The position numbers and the translations under genes were made by a program. The notes below the pieces were generated by a model that searched no databases, had not been told where the DNA came from, and saw only the letters and a program-made list of their open reading frames with translations. Positions 24,912 through 51,890 of a DNA stretch of 64,000 bases are shown here, piece by piece. Origin of the DNA: Halieaceae bacterium (GTDB lineage: Bacteria > Pseudomonadota > Gammaproteobacteria > Pseudomonadales > Halieaceae); assembly GCA_902631395.1 (NCBI GenBank), contig CACOYM010000003.1, positions 62,001-126,000 of the forward strand. Direction: 5' to 3'. Position 1 is the stretch's first letter; each line of letters starts with the position of its first letter.

Positions 24912-25526
24912 ATGGGCTATGCTGTGCACCGACTGCTAATAATCAACGCGCTACTACACTTGTGCATCGTGGTATCCGCTGTTAAGGCTGATGAGCATGA
25001 TGTCGCCATTATGGTGGCCAAGCAAAATATTGAATATTTGCAGCGATTGTACGCGCGAGCCACTGACCAGATCGGAACCAATTTGCCGGAGAATATAGAG
25101 GCTGGCCGGGAGGTTTATCACCGGATATTCACCTCTGACGCGACGATTAGGGCCAGCGATCCCAGCGGCTCGCAATTTTCTGTGACGGGTCCGGATGAGT
25201 GGGTCAAAGTGGTCGACGGTGCGCTCTCTGTTTTTGACTCGACGCAGCACCTGTTAGGCACGCAGATCGTAGAGTTAGAGAGCATGCCCGATGCTGACGG
25301 GCGGGCTGGCAAGGGCAAAATGAGTAGTTTCCTGCAGGCGTGGCATCAAGATGATGACCGCGTTATCGATATTTATTTGGGCACTTATTTCAGCAAAGTT
25401 CGATACACCAAAGGAGTGGGCTGGCAAATATATGATATGCAGCTCGAGAAGGTGGCCGGCGAAGTCATTCACAAGCGCCCACAGAGCCCTGAACTGAAAA
25501 TAACCAGTGAACTGGATAGAAAATGA
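24912..25526 (+). CDS. Exported SnoaL/NTF2-like protein upstream of a Rieske oxygenase
   Basis: A 204-residue protein with an N-terminal signal peptide (core LLIINALLHLCIVVS, likely cut after VKA), then an NTF2-like cone fold: NIEYLQRLYARATDQIG helix, IFTSDATIRASDP, FSVTGPDEWVKVV and a C-terminal beta sheet ending GWQIYDMQLEKVAGEV. Rieske oxygenase beta subunits also use this fold, but an exported one is not expected to partner a cytoplasmic alpha subunit. The gene overlaps the Rieske gene by four bases (ATGA). GAGAGGTAG lies upstream of the ATG. Confidence 0.7.
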   Translation: MGYAVHRLLIINALLHLCIVVSAVKADEHDVAIMVAKQNIEYLQRLYARATDQIGTNLPENIEAGREVYHRIFTSDATIRASDPSGSQFSVTGPDEWVKVVDGALSVFDSTQHLLGTQIVELESMPDADGRAGKGKMSSFLQAWHQDDDRVIDIYLGTYFSKVRYTKGVGWQIYDMQLEKVAGEVIHKRPQSPELKITSELDRK

Positions 25527-26857
25527 ACGCCGCTAACCCTATTACCCTAAAGCGCGCGCTTAGTCGGCCACCTAAAGAGGCCGAACTTCAGCTGCGCGGG
25601 GATGTTGTTACCAGTGATCGCTATACCTCTCCAGATTATCTAATGCGCGAGTTCCTAAAGGTGTGGCATACCGTGTGGAACATCGGGGGTGTGGCTTATC
25701 AAATGCCTGAGCCTGGCGACTATCTGACCACTGAGTTGGGAATTGACTCCATCATTATGGTACGTCAGGAGGATGGCTCTGCTAAGGCCTTTTTCAACTC
25801 CTGTCCTCATCGAGGCACACGTATCACCGAAGCTGAAGATGGCCACGTTCGTGAATTTTCGTGCCCTTACCACGGGTGGACCTTTGATCGCGCTGGAGTA
25901 GTGACTTCAGTACCTGATGAGGAGGACTTTGTCGAGAGTCCCTGCGGAAAGGCCCGGCTGAAGGAAATGCGATGTGAGGAGCGATTCGGGTTGATTTGGT
26001 ACAATTTTGATCCCGACGCGCCGACCTTAGAAACCAGTCTGGGCAGAGCGATCTGCCGTGAGCTTGAATCGCACCGAATCGAGGACATGCTCCGGGTACT
26101 CGATATGACGGCAGAAACGCACAGCAACTGGAAAATCATTACCGATAACTTCAATGAGGCCTACCACGTTAAAGTGTTGCACCCGGAGCTGATCCCATAT
26201 GTCGCGGCTGATTACGAAGATTGTCAGTTTGACTGCTTCCCAAATGGCCACAACCGCGGATGGTTTCCCTCTTTTATGCCCTCCGTTCAGTATCGCAGCG
26301 ATGCCATCGGTGAGCCTTTGAAAAGTATGGCTGCCGCCTGGAGTGTGAACAGTGACGATTACGTAGGACGGGAGAGCTGGCAGCGGTTGCGGATTGATAT
26401 TCAGGCGGCAAAGCGAGAGCGTGGCGAGGCGCTTGGGTATGCTCACTACAGCTACCGCGCCGACTATCAGCTCACTGACTACGTGATTTACAATCTGTTC
26501 CCTAATAACGTTATTACGGTGGGTCCGGACGGTGTCCAGCTCCTGCGCCCGCGACCGCACCCCACGGATCCGGCGCAATGCCTCTTTGATCACTGGTGGA
26601 TGGTCAATCGAGTCGAAGGACAGTCTATGACACCTTCACCAGCGGGGGGGCCGGATCTGCCTGTCGAAGATGCGTTCCACGAGCATTTTAAGTATGGCGA
26701 AAAAACGCTGGGCACTACCGCCGATCAGGACCTTAGCATTGCGGAGATGCAGCAAAAGGGTTTGGGATCGGCGGGTTTTCAAGGGTATTGGATGCCCAAT
26801 CAGGAGCGGCGCGTCCAGGCTTTCCACGAGCATCTAAACGATTTGATGTCCGACTAA
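25523..26857 (+). CDS. Rieske non-haem iron aromatic ring-hydroxylating oxygenase, alpha subunit
   Basis: A 444-residue oxygenase component. The Rieske [2Fe-2S] ligands are C94/H96 and C114/H117 (CPHRG and CPYHGW), and the mononuclear iron site is in DNFNEAYHVKVLH with H215 and H220. It would hydroxylate or demethylate a substrate with electrons from a ferredoxin reductase that is not encoded nearby. No ordinary beta subunit is present; the coupled upstream gene encodes an exported NTF2-fold protein. The substrate cannot be told from sequence; aromatic acids, steroids and N-methyl compounds are all possible. Confidence 0.9.
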   Translation: MNAANPITLKRALSRPPKEAELQLRGDVVTSDRYTSPDYLMREFLKVWHTVWNIGGVAYQMPEPGDYLTTELGIDSIIMVRQEDGSAKAFFNSCPHRGTRITEAEDGHVREFSCPYHGWTFDRAGVVTSVPDEEDFVESPCGKARLKEMRCEERFGLIWYNFDPDAPTLETSLGRAICRELESHRIEDMLRVLDMTAETHSNWKIITDNFNEAYHVKVLHPELIPYVAADYEDCQFDCFPNGHNRGWFPSFMPSVQYRSDAIGEPLKSMAAAWSVNSDDYVGRESWQRLRIDIQAAKRERGEALGYAHYSYRADYQLTDYVIYNLFPNNVITVGPDGVQLLRPRPHPTDPAQCLFDHWWMVNRVEGQSMTPSPAGGPDLPVEDAFHEHFKYGEKTLGTTADQDLSIAEMQQKGLGSAGFQGYWMPNQERRVQAFHEHLNDLMSD

Positions 26858-31253: not shown

Positions 31254-31543
31254 TTTCTACTTAAGGCGTGGGCCGTGTGGTTGGGAGTATTACACCCCGG
31301 TAGCGAAGCAGCACATTATCATGACGCTGTACTGATGCCACGGTGTTTGCGGCACGCCGCCAGCAGGTATTTGCAGCGAACGGAGCACGCGATGAGGCCC
31401 TTTGGGATGTCGGATCGCGTTAAGGCGATGGGACGCTGAGAGAGATAATGGGATAAATCGTAGGCGTTTGCCATTAGGGCACGGCCGACTGCCAGATTGC
31501 TCGGCAGGCCTTGGTCCGTTAACCAGGCGTCGGAAAAGGGGCC

Positions 31544-32266
31544 ATGCATCTCATCGAGTGGAATGTCGCCCCTGATTCCGTGCGCACGGGGGCGCAAGTA
31601 TTCGATTAGTGCTCCAAAAATCCTTGATATCTATGTCGATGATCTGCCAAATCGGATTGCTCAATTGGCGGAGCAAGGGATGGTTTTCCGCAATGAGAAG
31701 GACAGTGAAGCGGTTTCCCCCGACGGAGTTCACTTCCGGAAGATCCATTTAGCGGGCCACTATAATATTAATATCGCGTTTCTTGAGGTGATCGGCGGTG
31801 AGGAACTTATCCCCGCAAAGTTAATCTGTGGTGTTGGTGCCTCGGTTTGCATCGTGCAAGATCCGGCGGCTGAAAACGCTTCTGTGAGACGATTTCGGGC
31901 GTGTCTTTCTTTCATAATAATATTCGAGATGGGCCTGAGATCGAAGCGATGATTGGTCTGCCGTTTTGCTGCACTATGTAAGGGGGTATCTGGTCCGAGC
32001 CCCGAGAGGTGTTGGGCGAGTTGGAGCTCGTCACCTGTCAGGGCACTGACGGTGCAGATCGCTTCCCGTGGGCCCGGCCGGGTGCCCGGGAACTCACGCA
32101 CCTAAACTGGTGGGTGGATGACCTAGGTGCCTTTGCCTCGCACCTTTAAGAGAAGGGAGTGCCATACCGGCTCTTACGCGCAGGGGAGACGCTGATAAAG
32201 TCGTCTTTTAAAGAGATATTCTAGTCACTCGCGGGTCTAGCACTGGAATGCCATCAACGGATCTGA
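31544..32266 (+). pseudogene. Decayed VOC-family (glyoxalase/dioxygenase-fold) gene
   Basis: Three reading frames together give a VOC-like protein. Frame one: MHLIEWNVAPDSVRTGAQ then a stop. Frame two, from about 31611: APKILDIYVDDLPNRIAQLA, FRKIHLAGHYNINIAFLEV, the core of a VOC half. Frame three, from about 31903: FFHNNIRDGPEIEAMIGLPF, a stop, ELELVTCQGTDGADRFPWAR, LTHLNWWVDDLGAFASHL, another stop, EKGVPYRLLRAGETL and a further stop. At least two frameshifts and three or four nonsense codons are present. Upstream sequence from about 31320 may be the eroded N-terminal part. Confidence 0.7.
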
Positions 32267-32537: not shown

Positions 32538-33977
32538 ATGGCGGAGCAAAAAGCCCTACATATCAACGGTAACTGGGTCACCACTTCTGACACCGTCGTT
32601 AACACAAATCCCTCTGACACCAACGATGTGATCGGTGAATATGCTCAGGCCAGTTCGGACCATGTAAAAGACGCCCTGGCCGCTGCCAACCGGGCGGTGG
32701 CGGAATGGGGGGTGTCTCCGATAGAGACGCGCTACCGGGTGCTTATGGCCATTGGTGATGAGTTACTTGAGCGCAGCGCCGAACTCGGTGCGCTATTGGC
32801 CCGTGAAGAGGGCAAAACCCGCGCGGAAGGCATCGGAGAGGTGTATCGCTCTGGGCAGTTCTTTCATTATTTTGCCGCTGAGGTGCATCGCCAGATTGAT
32901 GACCGGGCGGATTCGGTGCGCCCGGGCGTGGAGATCGAAACGCGTCGTGAGCCTGTGGGTGTGGTCGCGATTATCAGCCCGTGGAATTTTCCCATGGCGA
33001 CCGCGGTGTGGAAAATCGCGCCGGCGCTGGCCTTTGGTAACGCCGTTATCTTGAAGCCGGCCAATCTCGTGCCCGCAAGTGCCTGGGCTCTGACCGAGAT
33101 AATCTCCAGGCAGGGTCTGCCTGATGGCACATTTAATCTTCTCATGGGCGGGGGCGATACGGTGGGTGACCACATCATTCACAGCGACCAGATTCATGCG
33201 GTGTCATTCACGGGCTCGTTGCCGGTTGGCAAACAGGTCGCGGCCGCGACTGCTGCGAATCTGGTGAAGTGCCAGCTTGAGATGGGTTCCAAAAACGCGC
33301 TAATTGTGGCGGCTGATGCTGATCTGGATGTGGCCGTTAACGCGGCATTCATCGGCGCATACAGCGGTACGGGGCAAAAATGCACCGCCTCATCACGCCT
33401 GATTGTGGATGAAAGCGTGCACGACGCCTTCGTCGAAAAATTGAGGGCCAAGCTGGCCTCGGTCACGGTGGGCCACGCCTTGGAAGAGGGTGTTGATATT
33501 GGTCCAGTGGCCTCAGAGGTGCAGCTCAACGAGAATCTGGCCTGGATCGAACGAGGAGTAAAGGAGGGGGCGACTCTACTCTGCGGCGGCGAGCGGCTAG
33601 TTTTGCCTGCGCCCGGCTACTACATGTCGCCGGCGCTATTTGTCGATACCGACAACGACATGGCAATCAATCGGGAAGAGCTTTTTGCGCCGATCGCCTG
33701 CGTAATAAGTGCCAAGGATTACGAGCACGCGCTGTCGATACTCAACGACACCAACTTTGGTCTCACTGCCGGTATCGTGACCCAATCGCTGGCTAAGGCG
33801 TCTGATTTCAAAAAGCGCGCGGTGAGCGGCTGTGTGATGGTGAATCTGCCAACGGCGGGAACCGATTACCATGTGCCTTTCGGCGGGCGTAAGGACTCCA
33901 GCTTTGGTCCGCGTGAGCAAGGCCAATACGCGCGTGAGTTCTACACCACGATCAAAACGACCTACCTTCAGGCCTAA
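32538..33977 (+). CDS. Aldehyde dehydrogenase heading the sox-like operon
   Basis: A 479-residue ALDH with SPWNFPMATAVWKIAPALAF, catalytic Glu in LEMGSKN and nucleophile Cys in GQKCTASSR. The overall style (ALHINGNWV, LKPANLVPASAW) is nearest to alpha-ketoglutarate-semialdehyde and related semialdehyde dehydrogenases, which finish hydroxyproline and aldarate breakdown; that substrate is inference. It is followed after 13 bases by the M19-like gene. In the operon it could oxidise the aldehyde released by the amine oxidase or a ring-opened intermediate. Confidence 0.85.
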   Translation: MAEQKALHINGNWVTTSDTVVNTNPSDTNDVIGEYAQASSDHVKDALAAANRAVAEWGVSPIETRYRVLMAIGDELLERSAELGALLAREEGKTRAEGIGEVYRSGQFFHYFAAEVHRQIDDRADSVRPGVEIETRREPVGVVAIISPWNFPMATAVWKIAPALAFGNAVILKPANLVPASAWALTEIISRQGLPDGTFNLLMGGGDTVGDHIIHSDQIHAVSFTGSLPVGKQVAAATAANLVKCQLEMGSKNALIVAADADLDVAVNAAFIGAYSGTGQKCTASSRLIVDESVHDAFVEKLRAKLASVTVGHALEEGVDIGPVASEVQLNENLAWIERGVKEGATLLCGGERLVLPAPGYYMSPALFVDTDNDMAINREELFAPIACVISAKDYEHALSILNDTNFGLTAGIVTQSLAKASDFKKRAVSGCVMVNLPTAGTDYHVPFGGRKDSSFGPREQGQYAREFYTTIKTTYLQA

Positions 33978-33990
33978 TTGCGGAGCGCGT

Positions 33991-35007
33991 GTGAACTCTG
34001 ATTGGACAGTTATCGACGGCCTGCAGTACTCGGCCTGGTCGCGCGAGATCTTCGAGCAGATGCACGAAGGCGGCCTTAATGCAGTCCACGTCACCATTGC
34101 CTACCACGAGAACACGCGCGAGACCTTGACGCGTTTTGGGGAATGGAACCAGCGCTTCGAGACGTACCCTGATCTGATACGGCCCGTGTATGAGCCGGCG
34201 GATATTGACCGCGCCAAGGCAGAAGGGCGCATAGGCATAATTTTTGGTGCGCAGAACTGTTCGCCGATCGAGGACGAGATCCGTTTGGTTGAGGTGATGC
34301 GTCGCCTCGGCCTCATGATCATGCAACTCACTTACAACAACCAGAGCCTGCTCGCCTGCGGTTGCTACGAGAAGGAGGACAGTGGGTTGACCCGCTTTGG
34401 CCAGCAGGTTGTCCGCGAGATGAACCGGGTCGGAATGGTGGTCGATATGTCGCACAGTGCTGAGCGATCTACTCTGGAAGCGATCGACTACTCAGAGCAG
34501 CCGGTCATTATTTCCCACGCGAACCCCAGTCACTTTCATCCGGCGCTCCGCAACAAGTCCGATAAGGTACTCGACGCGGTTGCCGCTAATGAGGGACTAC
34601 TCGGCTTCTCGTTATACCCCTTCCATCTCATGCACGGGCCGCAGTGCACGCTAGAGAGTTTCGCTGACATGGTTGCCTGGACTGCTGACCGTATGGGCGT
34701 TAATCGCATCGGCTTTGGCTCGGATCTCTGTCAGGCGCAACCGCAGTCGGTGTTGGAGTGGATGCGGGTTGGCCGCTGGTCCAAGGTCGTGGATTACGGT
34801 GAGGGCTCTGCCGATAACTCCGGCTGGCCCGAGCAGCTTAGCTGGTTTGCGGATAATCGTGACTTCCCGGGTATCGTGAGTGCGCTTCGCGGCAAAGGCT
34901 TTTCGGAGGAAGAGTTGGGTTTGATCATCGGTGGCAACTGGGTGGATCTCTTAAAGCGCGTCGCGCAGTCATCCTCAGCACCCTCGGAAAGCGGCGCCGA
35001 GCAATGA
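33991..35007 (+). CDS. M19 (membrane dipeptidase)-family protein with altered metal site
   Basis: A 338-residue homologue of renal dipeptidases. The two later zinc His motifs are present (VVDMSHSAERS and VIISHANPSH), but the family's N-terminal His-x-Asp pair is replaced (IDGLQYSAW) and the bridging Glu position reads FGAQNCSP. It may bind one metal or none, so dipeptidase activity should not be assumed. Homologues occur beside glycine betaine/dimethylglycine genes in Pseudomonas, which fits the sox-like genes here. GTG start at 33991 with CGGAG upstream; overlaps the next gene by ATGA. Confidence 0.8.
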   Translation: MNSDWTVIDGLQYSAWSREIFEQMHEGGLNAVHVTIAYHENTRETLTRFGEWNQRFETYPDLIRPVYEPADIDRAKAEGRIGIIFGAQNCSPIEDEIRLVEVMRRLGLMIMQLTYNNQSLLACGCYEKEDSGLTRFGQQVVREMNRVGMVVDMSHSAERSTLEAIDYSEQPVIISHANPSHFHPALRNKSDKVLDAVAANEGLLGFSLYPFHLMHGPQCTLESFADMVAWTADRMGVNRIGFGSDLCQAQPQSVLEWMRVGRWSKVVDYGEGSADNSGWPEQLSWFADNRDFPGIVSALRGKGFSEEELGLIIGGNWVDLLKRVAQSSSAPSESGAEQ

Positions 35008-36740
35008 CGGAGCTGACCAACGCCTTTGAAGAATCCGCACTGCCGCTAAGGTCACCCGCGACGGTCATGGATCTTGAACGGCTGGGGTCATTTTCGCCGA
35101 CGAGATTGAGCTTTGCGCGCAGGCTCACGCGCATGATGTTCGAGCAGAAATGGCAGGCGTCCTGCACACAATTTGAGCTCAATGCCTCCGGTCATGGGTC
35201 TGCGGTGTATCGCTTGCAAACACCGACGCACCGATATCACGTAGTGATCTTTTCCCAGTATCTCGAGGGCCAAAGACGCACCGACAGGGTGATTGCCGAG
35301 GCCTGGGATTTAACCTTCTGTCTGGTGGAGGGTGAGGTCGACGCCGATCTGATGTCGGCGATGTCGGCTAACGTGCCGTTACAGGAGGCGGGGCGCCAGC
35401 ATCCCAAATTGTTGGTGATCTCGCGCGCGAATAAGTCGGTGCGCAACTTTGAGGTATTCGTCTCTGCGTTGGCATCAGGCCAACAGCCTGATATCGAATA
35501 CGTCAAAGAAGCTGGCTATCTCTACCGCACCACCGCGGTTTACGGTAATGGCAAATTTGGGATCGCGGATTACGATCGCATCAAAGGGTGTGAGGATTTT
35601 CAGCAGCCCTTTTCCGCGCAAATGGCAGCGGTGTATGTGCTGCGCGAGTTTTCGGTCCAGCAGGTCGAGCACATCGCCAGGGCGAGAGATTCGGTCCGCG
35701 CTGTGACCTTGAAAACAGACACGCGACGCTATCTGGGCATCGGTAATTCCACAGGGCTTGGAATGGCGCCTTTTTTGATCAATCACCCGCAGTTGATCAG
35801 TCAGTGGGTGTGGGCGCGAGAACGGGCGCTTGCTGTCGCAGTGTCGCAGCTTCCCAAAGAGAGCGACCGGGAGAAAATAGTCGCTCTGTGCCGCCGTGCC
35901 ATAGCCTATCTGGCCGATACCCGCGTTGAAGACGAGCCCCAACGAGTGCGTAATGGCGAGGCGCAGGCCGAACTCATGCAGGTGATGGCTTGGCTGGAGC
36001 AGGTGCCGCTGGATGACACCCTGTGGCAACAGCTACTCAAATGGGCGCAGACACAGCTGTCACTCGAGACCCAAGAATTGCTCACTACGCTGCTCATTGA
36101 GCTTTATCCTCAGCAAGTCGATTCGTTAAACGATGCGATGTTTGCTGACGAAAATCTCGATTTGACTCCTGACATGCCGCTGATTCAGCTCAAGCAGATT
36201 CTGGAGACGCATTTTGATTGGGCAATTCACGCTAATTATGAGTGCGAGGACGCGCGGTACTGGTTCTGGTACCAGTCGGCAGAAAAGGAGGAGCCGCGGC
36301 TCGGTGTGAGAGGGGAAGAATTGGGTGAGGAAAAGGAGCTCGCGCTCGCCATCGCCCCAACAACCCAGCGCGTTTACCGTGATCTCGTTGAATTGTTGCA
36401 TGCACAGCCCCGTGCGCTGACCGTTGATTTGGTAATCGCATTTCCCGAGCACATGCGGGTCATCCGTCGCATACAGACTATGGCCGCTACGGTGTATGGA
36501 GAGATCAGAGCCAATTTATGGCACCGCGACATGAAGCCCATGCATTTGTTGCGCGCCAAGCTGTCGTTCTTAGGTGCACACCGATTCGATCCTCGGGGCG
36601 AACGCTGGGTGAGGGTGACGTTTTTTCAGGGAGCTCCACTACTGAGAGACTACGAGGACGCCGCGGCGCCGCCGGAGGTGTTTGATGACTGGAGTTTTCC
36701 AGTAGCGCCCGGTGCGGAATTCACGGCTGCAGTGCCATGA
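35004..36740 (+). CDS. Large protein of unknown family in the sox-like operon, 578 residues
   Basis: I do not recognise this family. The protein is soluble with no signal peptide or membrane span. Visible landmarks are LGSFSPTRLSFARRLTRMMF near the start, HRYHVVIFSQYLEGQRRTDR, YLYRTTAVYGNGKFGIADYD around residue 180, GIGNSTGLGMAPFLINHP around 250, a long helical Gln/Leu-rich middle and a C-terminal RVTFFQGAPLLRDYED. The glycine-rich GNSTGLGMAP might be a ligand loop. It is coupled by ATGA overlaps to the M19-like gene before and the DUF3726 gene after, so it works in the same pathway. Confidence 0.7.
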   Translation: MTELTNAFEESALPLRSPATVMDLERLGSFSPTRLSFARRLTRMMFEQKWQASCTQFELNASGHGSAVYRLQTPTHRYHVVIFSQYLEGQRRTDRVIAEAWDLTFCLVEGEVDADLMSAMSANVPLQEAGRQHPKLLVISRANKSVRNFEVFVSALASGQQPDIEYVKEAGYLYRTTAVYGNGKFGIADYDRIKGCEDFQQPFSAQMAAVYVLREFSVQQVEHIARARDSVRAVTLKTDTRRYLGIGNSTGLGMAPFLINHPQLISQWVWARERALAVAVSQLPKESDREKIVALCRRAIAYLADTRVEDEPQRVRNGEAQAELMQVMAWLEQVPLDDTLWQQLLKWAQTQLSLETQELLTTLLIELYPQQVDSLNDAMFADENLDLTPDMPLIQLKQILETHFDWAIHANYECEDARYWFWYQSAEKEEPRLGVRGEELGEEKELALAIAPTTQRVYRDLVELLHAQPRALTVDLVIAFPEHMRVIRRIQTMAATVYGEIRANLWHRDMKPMHLLRAKLSFLGAHRFDPRGERWVRVTFFQGAPLLRDYEDAAAPPEVFDDWSFPVAPGAEFTAAVP

Positions 36741-37492
36741 AAATCTCTCTCAATGAGTTGCAGTCGGTCTGCCGCAAAGCCTTCGCCGGGATGGGGTTTG
36801 AAGCAGGGCATGCCGATGACGCCGCGGCGATGGTGGCGTGGATGCAGAGCTACGGGCTCGACGGCATGAAGGCGCTCAACGAGGGGCTTGAGTGTGTGGT
36901 GGCATCCGCGGCATTAGCCAGACCAAATGTGATTTATCAGGACGCTGATCTGGCTGTCGTGGATGGACAGCACATGAGCGTGCTGTCGTCCGGCAATCTG
37001 GCGCTGGAGTTGGCGTTCGCCAAGGCACGAATTCGCGGTCTGGCCGTTATCAAGATTCGGCACTGTCGTCAGCGCCAACTTATCATGGGGTATCTGTCCC
37101 GGCTTGCTGATCGCGGTATGAACGTGACGGCATTTTGGCGCCACTCCCAGACACCGATCACTGAACAGGTCGTGGGTTTTCGTGCCAGCTCGGCGGTGCC
37201 TTCCATAAGAGTTTTCGAGCTGGCCGATACGCCTGAGGATGATGTCCCGAATGATGGTATTACCATTGTGATGGCAAACCACTTCGATCTGTTGCCCAAG
37301 ATTCGCTCGGAGGATGAGTACGAATTGCTTGCCTGTCACGACGAGGCCGATTTGTTAGCGGCTAGGCATCAGGCATTGGCTGAGGGACTCACCGTTGACC
37401 CTGAGATCTGGCAGCAGCTCAGGGGTTTTGCTGCGAAAACGTTGGTTGAAGCGTCTGAGCAATCGCGCTCCGATGCAGGGCCCGCAGAATGA
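36737..37492 (+). CDS. DUF3726 protein (Ldh2-related)
   Basis: A 251-residue protein of the DUF3726 family. It begins MKISLNELQSVCRKAFAGMGF and has AAAMVAWMQSYGLDGM, resembling the N-terminal part of Ldh2/malate-type dehydrogenases, then IKIRHCRQRQLIMGYLSRLA and VMANHFDLLPKIRS. The second half of an Ldh2 enzyme, needed for nicotinamide nucleotide binding, is not evident. Families of this kind sit next to sarcosine-oxidase-like genes in marine bacteria; no activity is known to me. Both ends overlap neighbours by ATGA. Confidence 0.75.
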   Translation: MKISLNELQSVCRKAFAGMGFEAGHADDAAAMVAWMQSYGLDGMKALNEGLECVVASAALARPNVIYQDADLAVVDGQHMSVLSSGNLALELAFAKARIRGLAVIKIRHCRQRQLIMGYLSRLADRGMNVTAFWRHSQTPITEQVVGFRASSAVPSIRVFELADTPEDDVPNDGITIVMANHFDLLPKIRSEDEYELLACHDEADLLAARHQALAEGLTVDPEIWQQLRGFAAKTLVEASEQSRSDAGPAE

Positions 37493-37665
37493 GCGCGATT
37501 TTAGCGCTGGCAATGGGAGTCAATGATTTGGCTCGCAAGAGTGATGTCGTGGTGTGTATCGCAACGGCGCCATCGCAATGGTGCGACGAGCGGATCGCAA
37601 CTAATTCCGAGGGGTGCCACGGACCGTTACTTGGTGGTCTGTATTTTGCTGAGCGAGGCATCTAG
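37489..37665 (+). CDS. Small ORF between DUF3726 and soxB-like genes, 58 residues
   Basis: A 58-residue reading frame that starts in an ATGA overlap with the DUF3726 stop and ends two bases before the soxB-like ATG, so it fills the gap exactly. The product begins MSAILALAMGVNDLARKS and contains three cysteines (VVVCIATAPSQWCDE, SEGCHGP) and GGLYFAERG. No domain is recognised. It could be a small subunit or chaperone of the oxidase, or the remnant of a longer gene. Confidence 0.5.
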   Translation: MSAILALAMGVNDLARKSDVVVCIATAPSQWCDERIATNSEGCHGPLLGGLYFAERGI

Positions 37666-37667
37666 TC

Positions 37668-38915
37668 ATGCCGTTCTCACTCTTGAAATTCGGTCTGTAC
37701 AAAGATTACCCGTTTGAGCAAATCGCCGACTTACCGGGCCCCACTGATCTTAAGCAATATTACGACGTGGTGATCATCGGTGGCGGGGGACACGGCATCG
37801 CGACTGCCTATTACCTCGCTAAATATCACGGCATCACGAATGTCGCGGTGCTGGAAAAATCTTATTTGGGTGGCGGCAACACAGCACGCAACACGGCGGT
37901 CATTCGCTCCAATTACCTTACCTCAGCGGGCGTCCGTTTCTACACCGAATCGGTGAAGCTGTTCGAGCGGCTATCCAACGAATTTGATTTCAATATCATG
38001 TACTCGAGACGGGGGCAGCTGACGCTAGCGCATACCGATACCACTGTTAGGGCGTTTCGCCAGCGGGCTGAGGTCAACAAGCATTTTGGTGGTCGCACTG
38101 AACTGATCGATCGGCAGGCGGTGGGCGAGCTGTTGCCCAGCCTCAATTTAGATCCTGCTGGTTTGCCAATACTCGCTGGCCTCTGGCACCTTGATGGCGC
38201 CACCGCGCGCCATGACGCTGTCGCCTGGGGTTATGCCAAGGGCGCCACGCAGTGTGGCGTGGAGTTGCATCAGCTGACAGAGGTCACTGGTATCGATATT
38301 GAAGCGGGGCGCGTCACCGGTGTGCAAACCAATCGCGGGCGGGTAGCTTGCGGCTGTGTGGTGCAGGCCGTTTCGGGCCTCAGCGCGGAAGTCTCAAGAA
38401 TGGCCGGCTTTCCACTGCCGATTGTGGCGTACCCTTTGCAAGCCATGGTGACCCAGCCGGTCAAGCCTTTCTTGGATCCCCACGTGAGTTCTTCTGCGCT
38501 CCATTGTTATGTTCACCAGACTAGTCGCGGCGAGATTGTGATTGGTGGTGGGTCTGACCCGTACCCGCTGTATGGCACGCGTTCCACGCTCGAGCTGAAA
38601 GAGGGCTTGATCGGGTCTGCGGTAGAGATGTTCCCGTTCATGAGTGAGATGCGCCTCATGCGCCAATGGGCGGGGATCACCGACATGACCAGCGACTACA
38701 GTCCGATCATGGGGTTGAGTCCCGTCGAGAACTATTATCTGGACGCGGGGTGGGGTACCTGGGGCTTCAAAGCAACGCCTATTTGTGGCGTCACCATGGC
38801 TGAACTGGTGGCTTCCGGTGGCAAGGTGCCTGATCTTATTTCGCCCTTTAGTCTCGATCGTTTCGATGCCTTTCGGCAAGTAAACGAGATGGGCGCCACG
38901 GCGGCGAGTCACTAG
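37668..38915 (+). CDS. Sarcosine oxidase subunit beta-like (FAD amine oxidase)
   Basis: A 415-residue DAO-fold flavoprotein. The FAD-binding VVIIGGGGHGIATAYYLAKY lies at 34-53 and GGGNTARNTAVIRSNY at 68-83 is typical of heterotetrameric sarcosine oxidases; His182 in RHDAVAWG probably corresponds to the residue that holds FMN covalently in that enzyme. The C-terminus has GWGTWGFKATPICG. The complex would oxidise the C-N bond of an N-methyl or secondary amine and pass formaldehyde or an imine to the alpha subunit. Eight bases separate it from the delta-like gene. Confidence 0.85.
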   Translation: MPFSLLKFGLYKDYPFEQIADLPGPTDLKQYYDVVIIGGGGHGIATAYYLAKYHGITNVAVLEKSYLGGGNTARNTAVIRSNYLTSAGVRFYTESVKLFERLSNEFDFNIMYSRRGQLTLAHTDTTVRAFRQRAEVNKHFGGRTELIDRQAVGELLPSLNLDPAGLPILAGLWHLDGATARHDAVAWGYAKGATQCGVELHQLTEVTGIDIEAGRVTGVQTNRGRVACGCVVQAVSGLSAEVSRMAGFPLPIVAYPLQAMVTQPVKPFLDPHVSSSALHCYVHQTSRGEIVIGGGSDPYPLYGTRSTLELKEGLIGSAVEMFPFMSEMRLMRQWAGITDMTSDYSPIMGLSPVENYYLDAGWGTWGFKATPICGVTMAELVASGGKVPDLISPFSLDRFDAFRQVNEMGATAASH

Positions 38916-38923
38916 GTGGCGGT

Positions 38924-39226
38924 TTGAAAATCCTCACTTGCCCTTTGAATGGCCCGCGCAATATCGCCGAGTTCACCTATGGCGGTCAGGTGAAGCCCAT
39001 GCCCAATCCGACCGAGGCCACGGATCAAGAGTGGGCGCATTACGTGTTTTATGGTGACAACCACATTGGCGTAGTGCGCGAGTGGTGGATGCACACGCCC
39101 AGTGGTTACTGGTTCATCGTTGAAAGGCATAACCAAACCGATGAGGTGATGCGCACCTATGACCCGGCAGAACTGTTTGATCCGGGTTCTTCGCCCGCGA
39201 CGGAACCAGTGCAGGCCGATCCGTGA
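38924..39226 (+). CDS. Sarcosine oxidase subunit delta-like, without full zinc site
   Basis: A 100-residue SoxD-family subunit: CPLNGPRNIAEFTYGG at the N-terminus, ATDQEWAHYVFYGDN, REWWMHTPSGYWFIVERH and EVMRTYDPAE. In characterised SoxD three Cys and one His hold zinc; here only the first Cys and the His remain, with Asn and Tyr at the other positions, so zinc binding is doubtful. It starts at a TTG (38924), since no ATG fits the family N-terminus. It overlaps the alpha-like gene by four bases (GTGA). Confidence 0.8.
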   Translation: MKILTCPLNGPRNIAEFTYGGQVKPMPNPTEATDQEWAHYVFYGDNHIGVVREWWMHTPSGYWFIVERHNQTDEVMRTYDPAELFDPGSSPATEPVQADP

Positions 39227-42120
39227 CGGAGCGATTGCCACTGCCCTACGGCAGCCGCATCAAGCGGGATACTCCGGTGAGCGCGCGTTTTGACGGGCGC
39301 GAATTGCCCGCGTTGGAGGGCGATACCGTTGCGTCTGCCCTGGTGGCCAGCGGACAGTGGGTGATCTCGCGGTCCTTTAAGTACCACCGACCGCGGGGTC
39401 CGCTGACCATGGCGGGGCATGACGCCAACACGCTGGTGCAGACGCGGGCGGCGCCCAATCGCCTTGCAGATGAATTACCCATCGCCGATTACCCCGAGAC
39501 CACGGCTCAGAACTTATCGGGCAGCTTGATGGCGGATCGTAGTGCCATCATCGACTGGTTTGGTCGCTTCCTGCCTGTAGGTTTTTACTACCGTGCCTTT
39601 TACCGACCGTTCGGCGTGTGGCACTGGTGGGAGCGAATGATTCGCAAAGCAGCTGGGCTTGGTGTGGCCAATCTGTCTGCCAGCCCTCACTACCAGGACA
39701 AGCAGTATCTGTTTTGCGATGTGGCGGTGGTCGGTGCGGGCCCTGCTGGTCTCAGTGCTGCGCTAAAGGCGGCGGAGGGTGGTGCCTCGGTTTTGCTTGT
39801 CGATGAAGAGCCTGAGTTAGGCGGCTCTCTGACGTATCACCGCTTTGCCATCGATAGTGATGCGGTGCGAAGCGAGGCGGAGACGCTCATCGCTAAAGTT
39901 GCATCGCATCCTCGTATCAAAGTGCTTACCCATGCACTCTGTAACGGCTGGTTTACCGATCATTATTTGCCCGTGATTCAGGGCGATCGCCTATTCAAGG
40001 TACGCGCCAAAAGTTGTGTGTTGGCGACAGGCATCAGTGAGCAGCACGTGGTGTTTCGGAACAACGATCTCCCCGGAGTGGTGCTTTGTAGTGCGCTTGA
40101 GCGCCTGCTCAACCATTATGCGGTGGCACCTCAGGGAGAGCTGGTGGTGCTTGCGGGGAATGACCAGGCCTGGATGACCGCGCTCACCGCGGCAGAGGCG
40201 GGCTTGCCTGTTGCGGCAGTCGTGGATCTCCGCGACGCACCGGACGACGCAGCGTTGCTGGCTGAAGCGAATGCGCGGGGCATGACGGTCTACATGGGCG
40301 CCACGGTTTACACTGCGCGACGTGATTCAGAGAGTCAGTCGTTGTGCGCTGTCGACATTCATCACATCGACAGTCAGGGCGAGGTGGGTGAGCTGATCGC
40401 GCAAACAGATTGCGCGGTTCTGGCTATGAGTGCGGGCTTTATGCCGGCGTACCAGCTGGCGTGTCAGGCCGGGGCAAAACTCGACTATGACGACGGCCGC
40501 GCGGCCTTTTCTTTAAGCGGGCTTCCTGCAGGACTCTTTTTGGCTGGCAGCGTGAACAGCATGTACGCGCTGGATGCGGTGTTAGCCGATGGTCGCAACG
40601 CGGCGCGCGCCGCGCTGCGATGCATTGATATGACCGCCGACGAGGATGAGTCCGTCACCTGCGCGGCGCAGGTGAATCACTCCTGGCCCATCTTTCCTCA
40701 TCCAAAGGGCAGAGAATTTGTCGATTTCGACGAGGACCTGCAGATCAAAGACATCGTCAACGCGACCAGGCTGGGTTATCGCGATGTGCAGTTGGTAAAA
40801 CGCTACTCAACGGTGGGTATGGGGCCCTCGCAGGGTCGGCACGCTGCGCTACCGACAGCTCGGTTGGTGGCAAAAGCCACTGAGCGCACAGTGAGTGAGA
40901 CCGGCGTCACCACGGCCCGACCTCCGGTCAAGCCCGAGGCGCTGGGGCACATTGCCGGCCGACGTTTCCACCCCCATCGCCACACGGCGATCGCGGACCG
41001 GCATGCTGCTGCTGGCGCGCAGTGGATGCCTGTGGGCCTCTGGGGGCGACCGGCATTCTATGGTGAGCCAAACTACAAGCAGCGCTGCGTGGCTGAGGAG
41101 GTCACGGCGGTGAGGACCGGTGTCGGTGTGATCGACGTCAGCACCTTAGGTGGTATTGAGCTTCGCGGTCCCGACGCTGCCGAGTTCATGAATCGTTTCT
41201 ATACCTATGGGTTCCTTAAGCAGCCCGTAGGACGCACCCGTTACGCCGTATTGGTGAGTGAGCAAGGCGTGGTCATGGACGATGGTGTCGCCGCGCGCCT
41301 CGCAGAAGATCGATTTTATGTCACCGCGACGACGGGCGGTGTCGACCGAGTGTATCGCGAGATGCTGCGCTGGAACGCCCAGTGGCGACTTTCCGTCGAC
41401 ATCACAAATCTTACGGCGGCCCTCTCGGCGATTAATATTGCAGGCCCTGATTCTCGCGCGGTAATTGAGGCATTGGATTGTTCGATTGATCTCAGCGCTG
41501 ACGCCTTTCCTTACCTCTGTTGCAGAGAAGGGGATGTGGCTGGTGTTCCCGCGTGTCTTATGCGGGTCGGGTTCGTGGGGGAGTTGGGTTACGAGCTCCA
41601 CGTGCCTAGCCTGTTTGCCGCCGCGCTGTGGGACGCGGTCATGGAGGCCGGCGAGCCATGGCGAATCAAACCCTTTGGTGTTGAGGCTCAGCGTCTGCTG
41701 CGTTTAGAGAAGGGCCACATCATTGTCGGGCAGGACACAGATGGCATGACACACCCTAGTGAAGTGGGGCTGGACTGGGCGATAAATCGCAGCAAGCCTG
41801 ATTTTGTGGGGCGCCGCTCGGTGGATATCCTCGCGGCTTCCGCGCCCATCCGGCAACTGGTCGGGTTTTCGCTGGAACTCACAGCGCCCAAACCCTTGGA
41901 AGGGCACTTGGTGATCAAGGATGGCGATATCGTGGGTAACGTTACTTCCTGTGCGGTCTCGCCCTCGCTCAATCAGATTATCGGGCTGGCCTACGCGCAC
42001 CCAGACACTGCGAACCCGGGCGATCGAATTGCGATTCGTACTGAGGGTGGTGTGCTGGTGCAGGCTCGAGTTGAAGGCCTTCCATTTTACGACCCGCAAA
42101 ACGCGAGGCAAGCGTTATGA
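39223..42120 (+). CDS. Sarcosine oxidase subunit alpha-like
   Basis: A 965-residue protein laid out like SoxA: an N-terminal ferredoxin-like domain without iron-sulfur Cys (about 14-105, with FKYHRPRGPLTMAGHDANTL), an NAD-binding Rossmann fold (DVAVVGAGPAGLSAALKAAE near 165), and a C-terminal GcvT-like folate domain from about 570 (YKQRCVAEEVTAVRTGVGVIDVS, LRLEKGHIIVGQDTDGMTHP, GLDWAINRSKPDFVG). The folate domain would capture the one-carbon unit. GTG start; both ends overlap neighbouring sox-like genes. Confidence 0.87.
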   Translation: MTERLPLPYGSRIKRDTPVSARFDGRELPALEGDTVASALVASGQWVISRSFKYHRPRGPLTMAGHDANTLVQTRAAPNRLADELPIADYPETTAQNLSGSLMADRSAIIDWFGRFLPVGFYYRAFYRPFGVWHWWERMIRKAAGLGVANLSASPHYQDKQYLFCDVAVVGAGPAGLSAALKAAEGGASVLLVDEEPELGGSLTYHRFAIDSDAVRSEAETLIAKVASHPRIKVLTHALCNGWFTDHYLPVIQGDRLFKVRAKSCVLATGISEQHVVFRNNDLPGVVLCSALERLLNHYAVAPQGELVVLAGNDQAWMTALTAAEAGLPVAAVVDLRDAPDDAALLAEANARGMTVYMGATVYTARRDSESQSLCAVDIHHIDSQGEVGELIAQTDCAVLAMSAGFMPAYQLACQAGAKLDYDDGRAAFSLSGLPAGLFLAGSVNSMYALDAVLADGRNAARAALRCIDMTADEDESVTCAAQVNHSWPIFPHPKGREFVDFDEDLQIKDIVNATRLGYRDVQLVKRYSTVGMGPSQGRHAALPTARLVAKATERTVSETGVTTARPPVKPEALGHIAGRRFHPHRHTAIADRHAAAGAQWMPVGLWGRPAFYGEPNYKQRCVAEEVTAVRTGVGVIDVSTLGGIELRGPDAAEFMNRFYTYGFLKQPVGRTRYAVLVSEQGVVMDDGVAARLAEDRFYVTATTGGVDRVYREMLRWNAQWRLSVDITNLTAALSAINIAGPDSRAVIEALDCSIDLSADAFPYLCCREGDVAGVPACLMRVGFVGELGYELHVPSLFAAALWDAVMEAGEPWRIKPFGVEAQRLLRLEKGHIIVGQDTDGMTHPSEVGLDWAINRSKPDFVGRRSVDILAASAPIRQLVGFSLELTAPKPLEGHLVIKDGDIVGNVTSCAVSPSLNQIIGLAYAHPDTANPGDRIAIRTEGGVLVQARVEGLPFYDPQNARQAL

Positions 42121-42674
42121 GCCTGCGAAGTCCGCTAGAAGGCAGAGGGATGATCGAGGGGCACGGTGGGCTTCGACTGATTGATCTCACGCTTGCGCGT
42201 CGAGGGGGATTGCGGGGCAGCGGTGCTCGGGAGTGGTTATTGAGTCAGGGGCATACAGTGCCTGCTGCGCCGAATCAGATTGTGGCCAGCGGCGAATCGG
42301 ACTCAGTGATGTCGCTGAGTCATCGCGAGTTTTGGCTGTTACAACCGAATTGTGGGGCCTCTTCAGCCCGACCGGCAGCCGTGGCAGTCGCGGCAGGCAT
42401 CTGGCCGTTATACTGCCAGCACAGTCATGCGTGGCTGCAGGTGGCAGGAGAGCCACGGGCCGAGATCATGGCGAAGCTCTGTGGCGTGGATCTCTCAGAA
42501 GCTGCGTTTCCGCAAGGTAGTGTGGCCCAGACGCAAGTTGCTAGGGTGTCGGTGATTGTCGCCGCCCATCAGGATCAAGACGGCCGGTCCGTTTTTTCAA
42601 TTTTCGTAGACCAATCCCTCGCCCGCTATCTATGGGAGGTGATTTCAGATGCGATGAAAGAGTGGCTCGGGTAG
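42117..42674 (+). CDS. Sarcosine oxidase subunit gamma-like
   Basis: A 185-residue subunit of the SoxG family, recognised from its position and its GcvT-related pattern (RLIDLTLARRGGLRGSGAREWL, WPLYCQHSHAWLQVAG, KLCGVDLSEAAFPQGSVAQT, DQSLARYLWEVISDAM). It has no enzyme site of its own and completes the heterotetramer. It starts in an ATGA overlap with the alpha-like gene and ends two bases before a convergent Ldh2-like gene, so it closes the operon. Confidence 0.75.
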   Translation: MSLRSPLEGRGMIEGHGGLRLIDLTLARRGGLRGSGAREWLLSQGHTVPAAPNQIVASGESDSVMSLSHREFWLLQPNCGASSARPAAVAVAAGIWPLYCQHSHAWLQVAGEPRAEIMAKLCGVDLSEAAFPQGSVAQTQVARVSVIVAAHQDQDGRSVFSIFVDQSLARYLWEVISDAMKEWLG

Positions 42675-42676
42675 CG

Positions 42677-43678
42677 CTAGCCGCCGGCCGCCAGCGTCTC
42701 GATTTGCTCCAATAGCGTCTCCGGTACTTCAACGCCCTCTGTCTCATGCTTCAGGCGCTCAGCCCCGCGGCGTGCGCCGGGGATCCGCACATCATTGCCT
42801 TCAGTGAGCGCGCTGAACATGGTCTCAAGGTGAGGAACAAAACCGGTGCCGAAAAATTCCGGATCCATCGCGATAATGGTTTGGCCCACATTGGGGGGGC
42901 CGCCTTCGGTGTTCGCGAACATCGAGGCCTCGTAGGAGCAGTTGCTACCAGTGAGTACACCTGCGAGTACATCCACCATTAAGCCCAGACCAAAGCCTTT
43001 GGGCCCGCCCACTGGGAGTTGCGCGCCTTTAAGTCCCGCCGCTGGGTCCGTGGTGGGGTTGCCATCCGGATCGATCGCATGGCCGAGCTCAATCTCGCGG
43101 CCTTCCGCGGCGGCGCGCACCAGATTCACGCGTGCGGTCGAGGCAGTAGCCATATCGATCACTAGTGGCTCATCACCTGCGCGCGGGGCGCCCATCGCAA
43201 AGGGATTGGTGCCAAAGAAGGGCACCCTGCCACCGTGCGCTGCCACGGCTTTGGAGCTGTTGGCGAACATCAATGACACAAAACCCTCGCGTGCGAGGCG
43301 TCGCACAAACCACCCTAGCACGCCCGCCGATGAAGACTGATGAATCGACATTAGCCCCACACCCTGAGAACGGGTCGTCTCGATGAGCCGCCCCTCGGCA
43401 ATCACATAAGCGTGGTGGCAAAAGCCAAAATCCGCATCGATCACGGTGGTCGATTCTGAGGTTTTGACTATTTTTGGTACCGCGGCTGGATTCACTTTGC
43501 CGCAGCGAAGATGCTTGAGGTACAGATGCAGATAGCCAAGTCCCACATTGCGGATGCCCTCGGCCTCCGCGTCCATGATCTCTTCGGCAACGATGGTTGC
43601 TTGTTCGTCACTGGCACCGGCGCGCTTAAGCGCATCAAAGCAGAGCGCTTCAATCTGATCGAGGGTGAGTACAGGCAT
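42677..43678 (-). CDS. Ldh2/malate dehydrogenase-family NAD(P)-dependent oxidoreductase
   Basis: A 333-residue enzyme of the LDH2/MDG2 family, which acts on 2-oxo acids or cyclic imino acids such as delta-1-pyrroline-2-carboxylate. It shows LYLKHLRCGK, MSIHQSSSAGVLGWFVRRLA, AAHGGRVPFFGTNPFAMGAPR and VGGPKGFGLGLMVDVLAGVLTG. Next to a sox-like amine oxidase an imino acid reductase role is attractive but inferred. Convergent with the oxidase operon, two bases from its end; the SDR gene upstream on the same strand could share a transcript. Confidence 0.85.
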   Translation of the reverse strand: MPVLTLDQIEALCFDALKRAGASDEQATIVAEEIMDAEAEGIRNVGLGYLHLYLKHLRCGKVNPAAVPKIVKTSESTTVIDADFGFCHHAYVIAEGRLIETTRSQGVGLMSIHQSSSAGVLGWFVRRLAREGFVSLMFANSSKAVAAHGGRVPFFGTNPFAMGAPRAGDEPLVIDMATASTARVNLVRAAAEGREIELGHAIDPDGNPTTDPAAGLKGAQLPVGGPKGFGLGLMVDVLAGVLTGSNCSYEASMFANTEGGPPNVGQTIIAMDPEFFGTGFVPHLETMFSALTEGNDVRIPGARRGAERLKHETEGVEVPETLLEQIETLAAGG

Positions 43679-48752: not shown

Positions 48753-49430
48753 ATGTCTTCCAACACATCTCCGTCGATCGGTATCGTCGGCGGCACAGGT
48801 GATCTCGGGCGCGGTCTGGCCCTCCGCCTGGCCAAGGCGGGACACGCCATCTGGGTAGGGTCTCGAAAAGCAGAGCAGGCCCATGAAGCCGCCGACGCGC
48901 TCAAGGCGGAGCTGGTGAGTCGGAATGTCGCTGAGCCCAAGATTGATGGCATGGATAATGTCGCGGCCGCAGAGCGCGGCGACATCGTGTTTGTCACCGT
49001 GCCTTTTGGCGCGCACACGCCGACGTTAGAGAGCATTCGTGAAGCAGTGCATGGTAAGGTACTAGTCGATGTCACTGTGCCGTTGGTGCCCCCGCGTGTT
49101 GCGAGAGTGCAACTGCCCTCTGAGGGAAGTGCGGGCATGATTGCCCAGACGCTTTTGGGCGAAGACGTTCATGTAGTGAGTGCCTTTCAAAATGTTGCGG
49201 CGGCGCACCTGCAGGCGGACATGGAAATTCCCTGCGACGTTCTTGTGACCGGTAATGAGAAAGCGGCCCGCCAGACGGTTATCGACCTCATCGAGGCGAT
49301 CGGTATGCGTGGATTCCATGCTGGGCTGATTCACAACGCAGCTGCCGCGGAAGCGCTCACATCCGTGCTGATCAACATCAACAAACAGTACAAGACCCAT
49401 GCCGGCCTGCGTCTGACCGGTATTGAGTGA
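48753..49430 (+). CDS. npdG: NADPH:F420 oxidoreductase
   Basis: A 225-residue Fno/NpdG-type enzyme that moves hydride between NADPH and coenzyme F420. The Rossmann loop is GIVGGTGDLGRGLALRLAKAG (10-30) with WVGSRKAEQ, where the SR suggests NADP preference; AFQNVAAAHLQ and GFHAGLIHNAAAAEALTSVL follow family style. It heads the F420 biosynthesis operon, so the cell can reduce the cofactor it makes. AGAGG lies before the ATG. Its end overlaps or abuts the cofE start. Confidence 0.93.
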   Translation: MSSNTSPSIGIVGGTGDLGRGLALRLAKAGHAIWVGSRKAEQAHEAADALKAELVSRNVAEPKIDGMDNVAAAERGDIVFVTVPFGAHTPTLESIREAVHGKVLVDVTVPLVPPRVARVQLPSEGSAGMIAQTLLGEDVHVVSAFQNVAAAHLQADMEIPCDVLVTGNEKAARQTVIDLIEAIGMRGFHAGLIHNAAAAEALTSVLININKQYKTHAGLRLTGIE

Positions 49431-49434
49431 TCCT

Positions 49435-50217
49435 GTGGCCGCAGGGGAGATGCATCTGACGCCGCTGGACGGTTTTCCCGCGGTGAGGCCTGGCGATGCA
49501 CTGGCTGAACTGATTGTGAGTAACTTACGCCGGCAATCATTGAGTGCCGGTGGCGGCGTGCCCGTGCTGGTTGTGGCCCAAAAAGTGGTATCGAAAGCCG
49601 AGGGCCGTGTGGTGTGCCTCCACGACGTTGAGGTCTCAGACGACGCACTACGGCTTGCAAAAGAGACAGGTAAGGACCCACGCGTTGTCGAACTCATTCT
49701 TCAGGAATCACGGTCAGTCATCCGCGTGCGCCCTGGACTGATTATCACGGAGCACCGGACTGGCCATATTGCCGCCAACGCCGGCATCGATGCCTCGAAT
49801 ACGGGCGTCGCTGCCGAGACAGGTGATGAGGTCGTGCTGCTTTGGCCTCGGGATCCGGATGCCAGCGCTCGGAAATTATCCGAGACAGTGTCCCAAGCCC
49901 TCGGGTACCACGTTCCTGTAGTGATCAACGATAGTCTGGGTCGTCCCTGGAGGATGGGCACGGTCGGTTTCGCAATCGGCGTTGCCGGTCTGGAGCCGGT
50001 GTGGGATCAGGTTGGAGAGCAGGATCTGGATGGGCGCACGATGCAGGTCACGGCACCCGCTATGGCGGATGCACTGGCGGCGGCCGCGTCGCTGGTTCAG
50101 GGGGAGACCGACCAGGGCACGCCCGTTGTCTGGGCGGAGGGCTGCCCCCTCCGAGTGAGCGAGCAGGCATCTTCAAGAGCGTTGCTCAGGGCGGTGCAGC
50201 AGGACATGTTCCGCTAA
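49435..50217 (+). CDS. cofE: F420-0:gamma-glutamyl ligase CofE
   Basis: A ~260-residue CofE that adds glutamates to F420-0 using GTP. It shows LTPLDGFPAVRPGDALAELI, VVAQKVVSKAEGRVV, GLIITEHRTGHIAANAGIDASN and VVINDSLGRPWRMGTVGFAIG. It ends after the ligase domain, so the FMN reductase half fused in mycobacterial FbiB is absent. Starts are unclear: TTG 49423, GTG 49435 and ATG 49450 are all in frame; the last fits archaeal CofE best but has a cramped ribosome site. Its TAA overlaps the cofD ATG by one base. Confidence 0.92.
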   Translation: MAAGEMHLTPLDGFPAVRPGDALAELIVSNLRRQSLSAGGGVPVLVVAQKVVSKAEGRVVCLHDVEVSDDALRLAKETGKDPRVVELILQESRSVIRVRPGLIITEHRTGHIAANAGIDASNTGVAAETGDEVVLLWPRDPDASARKLSETVSQALGYHVPVVINDSLGRPWRMGTVGFAIGVAGLEPVWDQVGEQDLDGRTMQVTAPAMADALAAAASLVQGETDQGTPVVWAEGCPLRVSEQASSRALLRAVQQDMFR

Positions 50218-51209: not shown

Positions 51210-51870
51210 AGTGGTCATCGCACTCAAAACAGTCAGCCATGCCAAGCGACGACTCAGTGTCGCGCTCACTGATGATGCGCGAGAAGCGCTGGTAGTGGCC
51301 ATGGCATTAGACGTGATCGCCAGCCTGTCTGCTTCTCGGGAAATCTTGGCCATTAATGTAATCTGCGGTGACGGCTGGGCTCATCTCAATAGCCTCCCTC
51401 CACCTGTCAGAATCTGGCGGGAACCCGATGGGCACGACGGAGGTATGGTTGGCGCATTGGAGTGGGTTGCCAGTCAAGTGGATAGCGAGGCCCTGCTTTT
51501 CATACACGGGGATCTGCCGTTTGTTGATTCAAATGACGTCACGTTACTGGCGTCGGCAGCCGCGCTGGAGTATGCGGTAGTCTCACCCGATCGATCGCAT
51601 ATGGGGACCAACGCTTTGCTTCGATGGCAGTCGCAGTCCCTGCCGTTGGCGTTTGGTGAGAATAGTTACGCGCGACATCTCGCAGTCATGGAAACTGCTG
51701 GATTGCATTGGCGTGAGGTGACCACAGCGGGTTTAGAAATGGATATCGACGAGCCAGCTGATCTCCAGCTTTTAGCGGATCACAGTGCAAGGCTGGGCAA
51801 ACATACAGCTGCTTGGCGGCAGCGTTACGGTGATTGTTTGTTCAAGGACGCTACCCAAAAGGTGCTCTAA
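51199..51870 (+). CDS. cofC: Phospho-acid guanylyltransferase CofC/FbiD
   Basis: A ~223-residue nucleotidyltransferase that activates a phospho-acid with GTP for CofD. It opens RLEVVIALKTVSHAKRRLS, has the FIHGDLPFVD metal-binding motif at 102-110, and DRSHMGTNALL and LEMDIDEPADLQLL near the end. Depending on lineage the substrate is 2-phospholactate, PEP or 3-phosphoglycerate; I cannot assign it here. The preferred start is TTG at 51199, since the in-frame GTG 51154 would overlap cofD by 56 bases and adds non-family sequence. Confidence 0.88.
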   Translation: MRLEVVIALKTVSHAKRRLSVALTDDAREALVVAMALDVIASLSASREILAINVICGDGWAHLNSLPPPVRIWREPDGHDGGMVGALEWVASQVDSEALLFIHGDLPFVDSNDVTLLASAAALEYAVVSPDRSHMGTNALLRWQSQSLPLAFGENSYARHLAVMETAGLHWREVTTAGLEMDIDEPADLQLLADHSARLGKHTAAWRQRYGDCLFKDATQKVL

Positions 51871-51890
51871 GACGTTAGAGTGGGGTGCAT

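Follow-up and report, generated by a model that had tools for sequence, protein, structure and literature searches.

Gene organization of the locus

The window, a stretch of 64,000 nucleotides, spans contig positions 62001-126000 of a 2.3 Mb assembly (60 contigs, 88.8% complete), and the closest named relatives found are Halieaceae and Luminiphilus MAGs. It contains a plus-strand operon whose reading frames and protein families, as judged from its ORFs and from Pfam and NCBIfam profiles, are those that the original prediction had given. The operon opens with an aldehyde dehydrogenase gene (ALDH, 32538-33977), for which the best NCBIfam models, alpha-ketoglutaric and 2,5-dioxovalerate semialdehyde dehydrogenases, score below cut-off. 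It continues with an M19 dipeptidase-family protein with an altered metal site (33991-35007; GTG start, with an alternative in-frame ATG at 33871); a conserved core gene of 578 codons belonging to no known family, here called U578 (35004-36740); a DUF3726 protein that also resembles the first part of Ldh_2 (36737-37492); and a 58-amino acid ORF of doubtful coding value (37489-37665). Four further genes encode a SoxB-like protein (37668-38915), which from its position in a tree is probably a subunit of N-methylglutamate (NMG) dehydrogenase; a SoxD-like subunit (38924-39226); a SoxA-like subunit with a folate-binding GCV_T domain (39223-42120); and a SoxG-like subunit (42117-42674).

Consecutive genes overlap at five of the eight junctions (M19/U578, U578/DUF3726, DUF3726/58-aa ORF, soxD/soxA and soxA/soxG) and are separated at the others by 13 nt (ALDH/M19), 2 nt (58-aa ORF/soxB) and, with an assumed TTG start for soxD at 38924, 8 nt (soxB/soxD). 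The original prediction had ATGA/GTGA overlaps throughout; they stand at the first five junctions and not at the three gapped ones. It had also placed an Ldh2-type enzyme beside the set. An Ldh2-family oxidoreductase gene (42677-43678) does sit two bases from the soxG stop, but on the minus strand, convergent with soxG and therefore outside the operon transcript.

The 58-aa ORF has counterparts, noted by eye, in two relatives (L021 and L022), where frames also run from the DUF3726 stop through to soxB; the sequence diverges among relatives and comprises only about 28 codons in a third (L024). In some relatives a BCCT transporter gene occupies its place. Just upstream of the operon, the remnant of a glyoxalase-superfamily gene is spread over three pieces in two frames (window positions 31472-32260), and the same gene is intact in L021 (6426-7382). 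A SnoaL-like protein and a Rieske ring-hydroxylating oxygenase alpha subunit are encoded 5.7 kb before the operon (24912-26857). Elsewhere, a coenzyme F420 gene run (48753-54305) encodes an F420-dependent NADP oxidoreductase-like protein, F420 ligase, CofD, CofC and a radical SAM protein with a CofH C-terminal region.

Conservation of the U578 block and its altered M19 protein

U578 matched no Pfam or NCBIfam model, nothing among PDB sequences with a better E value than 0.95, and nothing convincing in PHROGs. A family sample of 100 genomes has it in 17 and a phylum sample of 398 in 29, each count including the genome of the window. It was also located at 72 loci among assembled genome contigs, and 168 of the 72,556 plasmid records contain it, 165 of them matching at least 80% of its length. 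Comparison of these neighbourhoods revealed that ALDH, altered M19, U578 and DUF3726 recur as a block in Halomonas, Marinobacter, Vibrio, roseobacters, rhizobia and Halieaceae, usually accompanied by a LysR regulator and a betaine transporter. The original prediction had named, as the outcome that would count against it, a known sarcosine/dimethylglycine pathway beside unconserved genes; what the comparison found is that the unknown genes travel with the set.

Gene order around the block varies by lineage. Halomonas and Marinobacter have LysR followed by ALDH-M19-BCCT-U578-DUF3726, often with RidA. In Phaeobacter, soxBDAG and two regulators precede ALDH-M19-BCCT-U578-DUF3726-Ldh2; Aliiroseovarius also combines soxBDAG with the block, its BCCT gene standing after Ldh2; and Alisedimentitalea has the block as in Aliiroseovarius, without sox genes within the stretch examined. 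In Aminobacter the block is joined by an ABC transporter annotated for glycine betaine. On a Mesorhizobium plasmid (L127), U578 and DUF3726 are fused into a single protein of 814 amino acids, which suggests that the two act jointly. This is the only real fusion: candidates at L103/L217, L105/L176 and L124 proved to be long open frames with no in-frame partner.

For counting, we dropped U578 loci with less than 4.5 kb upstream or less than 3 kb downstream, or with identical U578 DNA. This left 97 loci, of which 79 carry an ALDH gene within 5 kb; the 18 without it were set aside. M19 is found at all 79 ALDH-type loci, LysR at 74, DUF3726 at 69, BCCT at 68, RidA at 47, Ldh2 at 17 and soxB at 11.

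The zinc ligands of M19 enzymes are an HxD motif, a bridging glutamate, two histidines and an aspartate. In an alignment of 128 rows, some of them from overlapping loci, the position of the bridging glutamate is glutamine in every row; the first histidine position is leucine in all 127 readable rows, and the aspartate position that follows is tyrosine or cysteine. The later two histidines are kept (in 127 and 128 of 128 rows), as is the aspartate (128 of 128). The alteration that the original prediction had seen in the M19 protein is thus common to its aligned relatives, both at the bridging glutamate and at the N-terminal HxD positions, and the alignment indicates a fixed change of the metal site, not decay. 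The nearest solved relative of the window protein, 2i5g, shares the same changes when aligned and is presumably the P. aeruginosa pepD protein.

Clusters of dgcAB and pepD in Pseudomonas aeruginosa and Vibrio natriegens offer a comparison, for there too a predicted dipeptidase gene adjoins an N-demethylation system, according to the accessible text of PMC12093977; together with the M19 gene here, this means that such proteins recur beside N-demethylation systems. By contrast with the present operon, the same text names a hypothetical protein in those clusters and has no U578 or DUF3726 (PMC12093977).

The SoxBDAG-like genes and a probable source of N-methylglutamate

The four sox-like genes encode FAD oxidoreductase and folate-binding domains recognised by Pfam and NCBIfam, and their subunit set, order and domains are those of heterotetrameric sarcosine oxidase. 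The solved structures nearest to SoxB and SoxA are likewise sarcosine oxidases (2gag and 1vrq). On these grounds, plain oxidation of sarcosine or dimethylglycine, with the other genes incidental, deserves consideration. All four subunits, however, score below the curated Sox cut-offs (soxA 834.5 against 1164, soxB 458.9 against 529.45, soxD 64.8 against 116.5 and soxG 46.5 against 143.95); the set has conserved partners; and queries for SHMT, purU, folD and gmaS found no match in the whole window, as the original prediction had held for serine hydroxymethyltransferase and folate genes.

We built a SoxB tree from 55 rows, left from 62 copies after duplicates of other stretches were dropped, and repeated it with 54 rows, leaving out the longest branch. 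The window SoxB falls into a clade of 16 rows (clade I, support 100/100, recovered in the 54-row tree) with sequences from Halieaceae, Natronospirillum and the four genomes G107, G154, G257 and G289. SHMT-linked oxidases (L154, L183 and L189) belong neither to this clade nor to the second one described below. The trees, together with the scores below cut-off, led us to reject plain sarcosine oxidation, which we regard as very improbable; from its sequence relationships, the operon would instead have an N-methyl amino acid as a likely intermediate, a cyclic or N-methyl amino acid having been suggested as the substrate in the original prediction. The one-carbon genes purU and folD adjoin two clade-I rows; purU is therefore not a discriminating partner.

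What, then, do the relatives of this enzyme do? In a sample of 299 genomes, the SoxA matches listed are led by those of G289 (60% identity), G257 (58%), G154 (52%) and G107 (50%), the others reaching at most 43%. The genes that come after soxBDAG in G107 encode two regulators, a glutamine amidotransferase and a glutamate-synthase-type protein, and gmaS (TIGR03105, over cut-off) is also among them; the whole corresponds to the N-methylglutamate pathway. About 12 kb at most separates soxBDAG, folD and purU from mgsC, mgsA and gmaS in G257, and in G289 gmaS and mgsA are about 20 kb from soxBDAG, with no mgsC in the stretches examined. The gmaS gene of G154 adjoins a different copy of sox on a separate contig, and none is near the clade-I row. 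Because members of the SoxB clade in two genomes adjoin NMG synthase and gmaS, we read the window's SoxBDAG as probably an NMG dehydrogenase (Mgd) and not a sarcosine oxidase, a label that depends on which genes adjoin sox in relatives whose SoxA is 50-60% identical; among clade-I rows, gmaS occurs within the same examined stretch only for G107, which sits on a long branch.

The SoxB proteins encoded beside U578 in Phaeobacter and Aliiroseovarius fall into a second clade (clade II, 8 rows, support 100/100). Four of its rows share a locus with gmaS, within 12 kb (L180 and L191) or 17 kb (L181 and L182); two others (L194 and L198) have no gmaS nearby, and the genome of the latter (G166) has none over cut-off. 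The presence of two separate lineages of the NMG-dehydrogenase type beside the same block points to NMG as a shared intermediate.

The likeness to MgdABCD of the methylamine pathway raises the possibility that the operon belongs to the NMG pathway of methylamine assimilation (gmaS, mgs and mgd), since copies linked to gmaS and mgs sit in the same clade as the window's set. The window's set differs in being linked to U578 and its partners, and gmaS over cut-off is missing from all 19 family genomes tested, that of the window included; it was detected in 9 of 18 genomes of another set that includes the gmaS/sox relatives. Since gmaS does not exceed its cut-off anywhere in the window's genome, and the window itself gave no match, we rejected methylamine assimilation, which we consider extremely improbable.

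The window's genus provides a further clue. Eighteen of its genomes were in the family sample, the window's own included, and soxB was looked for in 16 of them; neither of the other two (G088 and G098) has U578. U578 is present in 13 of the 16, and each of these 13 also carries soxB with at least 80% identity (split into two pieces in G092). None of the three genomes without U578 has a soxB of the window type, one of them (G049) having only a 46% copy. In G060 the two genes are on separate contigs although the contig of U578 continues for about 39 kb downstream of it, so that close linkage alone does not explain their co-occurrence; they are also on different contigs in G080, G083, G087 and G094, where contig ends are possibly the cause. 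Given this co-occurrence and the missing gmaS in the family genomes tested, the U578 block, and not methylamine, is probably the source of NMG.

A possible imine branch point and a proposed route from homarine to glutamate

The accessory genes of the block divide along a line that bears on its chemistry. Among the 79 ALDH-type loci, 47 have RidA alone, 19 have Ldh2 or sox, 13 have neither and none has both, with table thresholds chosen after the pattern had been noticed; nor do any of the 18 loci without ALDH combine RidA with Ldh2 or sox. As many as 35 of the 47 RidA loci come from one search set, mostly Halomonas and Marinobacter, and so are not independent. The split is also seen inside one family (f56, presumed roseobacters), with RidA at L211, L212 and L221 and Ldh2 at L213, L214 and L219, and between named plasmids, Sulfitobacter having RidA and Phaeobacter, Aliiroseovarius and Alisedimentitalea having Ldh2. 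Of 31 U578-bearing genomes, 8 have no soxB at 1e-60 (three of genus g35 and five of genus g55, with Vibrio-like loci); RidA is at the locus in 7 of these, and the eighth locus is near a contig end. Against a strict rule, four genomes (G145, G182, G198 and G418) have a RidA locus and soxB elsewhere. That RidA and Ldh2/sox never occur together at the loci counted suggests an imine branch point: such a split would be expected if lineages either reduce or hydrolyse an N-methyl imine.

In a comparison with PDB sequences, the nearest solved relative of the Ldh2 protein is the imine reductase DpkA. According to the accessible text of PMC6775277, the native reaction of DpkA is the reduction of a cyclic imine, and the enzyme also forms N-methyl amino acids, starting from 2-oxo acids and methylamine. 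The family is encoded on the operon strand in several roseobacters and rhizobia. His54 of the DpkA catalytic site is histidine in five of six alphaproteobacterial Ldh2 rows (L124 being the one without it) and valine in all four Halieaceae rows, which counts against DpkA-like imine reduction in the latter.

From these comparisons of sequence and gene neighbourhood, we think it likely that the operon serves the catabolism of an imported N-methyl betaine, with homarine as the most likely substrate, which is degraded via NMG to glutamate. Homarine is N-methylpicolinate, and its conversion to NMG loses one ring carbon; ring opening, aldehyde oxidation, hydrolysis at a formamide-like bond and imine reduction would account for this. 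The substrate and the chemistry of U578 are what we infer from this picture, and the individual steps follow from protein families and the carbon count: firstly, U578 and DUF3726 would attack and open the N-methylpyridinium ring; secondly, ALDH would oxidise the resulting aldehyde; thirdly, the altered M19 protein would hydrolyse a C-N (formamide-like) bond, whereby the sixth ring carbon may leave as formate, to give an N-methyl imine or enamine of 2-oxoglutarate. The DpkA-like Ldh2 enzyme would reduce this imine to NMG, which SoxBDAG (Mgd) would demethylate to glutamate and a C1 unit; relatives that have RidA would instead hydrolyse the imine, yielding 2-oxoglutarate and methylamine. Ring opening is the weakest of these steps, since U578 has no known relative, and Pfam recognised no known ring-opening enzyme in the operon.

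A homarine operon is reportedly named homABCDER, with N-methylglutamate and glutamate as its products; the conserved set of five enzymes (ALDH, M19, U578, DUF3726 and Ldh2) and a LysR regulator would fit A-E and R. Breakdown of another N-methylpyridinium carboxylate, trigonelline (tgn genes), involves ring opening by a two-part flavin monooxygenase and an aldehyde dehydrogenase; no such monooxygenase was recognised in the window operon. The accessible part of PMC13390433 describes homarine as a ubiquitous marine metabolite, states that NMG dehydrogenase takes part in its catabolism, and cites a paper on the conserved homarine pathway (Nat Microbiol 2026, 11:1531). The operon thus probably represents a pathway that was described in 2026, and the earlier statement that no pathway had been assigned to this gene set is probably wrong; its list of candidate substrates did include homarine and N-methylglutamate, both of which figure in the present best reading. 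Searches of a literature made up mostly of papers outside subscription returned no paper for DUF3726 and none for homABCDER, and general searches of the same scope did not find the RidA/Ldh2 alternation, the two Mgd lineages or the fixed M19 change in print, which the 2026 homarine paper may contain.

Several observations speak against the homarine reading. Thirteen of the 79 loci have neither RidA nor Ldh2/sox; the Ldh2 gene of the window is convergent, on the other strand; and the window departs from the homarine pathway in having no linked LysR or BCCT gene. In the 89% complete assembly the best BCCT match is a distant one (35%), and a search at 1e-20 gave no LysR.

The same NMG-to-glutamate outlet could serve a different substrate, with N-methylproline or proline betaine yielding N-methylglutamate semialdehyde, which ALDH would oxidise to NMG. 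Although the semialdehyde-type ALDH, the linked BCCT and betaine ABC transporters, and the Rieske-oxygenase and FAD-oxidoreductase modules near the block in Phaeobacter and Pseudomonas MPC6 would all suit this route, it leaves no role for U578, DUF3726 and M19, nor for an alpha-imine handled by RidA or Ldh2, and the Rieske module is not a constant partner of the block; we judge it unlikely. We would also give little credence to another N-methylpyridinium or N-methyl ring compound, for instance a pyridine betaine that is isomeric or carries substituents: the existence of ALDH-less U578 paralogue clusters means that the enzyme set may serve several substrates, but the only link between Mgd and such a compound found in the literature, in the accessible part of PMC13390433, is homarine.

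If the homarine reading is true, it places the pathway in Halieaceae, with two separate Mgd lineages beside one block, and suggests that relatives differ in whether they release methylamine or a folate-bound C1 unit. Genes leading from homarine to glutamate would matter for marine carbon and nitrogen cycling because homarine is called a ubiquitous marine metabolite (PMC13390433).

More tentatively, and with somewhat less than even confidence, we propose that U578, the Ldh2-like DUF3726 protein and the metal-altered M19 protein may constitute an uncharacterised system for opening N-alkyl heteroaromatic betaines, in which the imine would be resolved in one of two mutually exclusive ways, by reduction to NMG and folate-linked demethylation or by RidA-assisted hydrolysis to 2-oxoglutarate and methylamine, and that ALDH-less paralogues would apply the same chemistry elsewhere.

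U578 clusters without ALDH, mostly with M19, were seen at L178, L210, L215-L217, L220, L222-L226, L228 and L231, and may act on other substrates; four genomes (G182, G198, G282 and G418) have clusters of both types. A distant U578 homologue (31%) on S. meliloti pSymB lies beside an M19 protein, an ABC transporter and an IclR regulator, which give no clue to its substrate. Another homologue (32%) is encoded on a haloarchaeal plasmid of Natrinema versiforme (L130, 10091-15285), where its neighbours are an Ldh2-like protein of 317 amino acids, an aldehyde dehydrogenase and a BCCT transporter.
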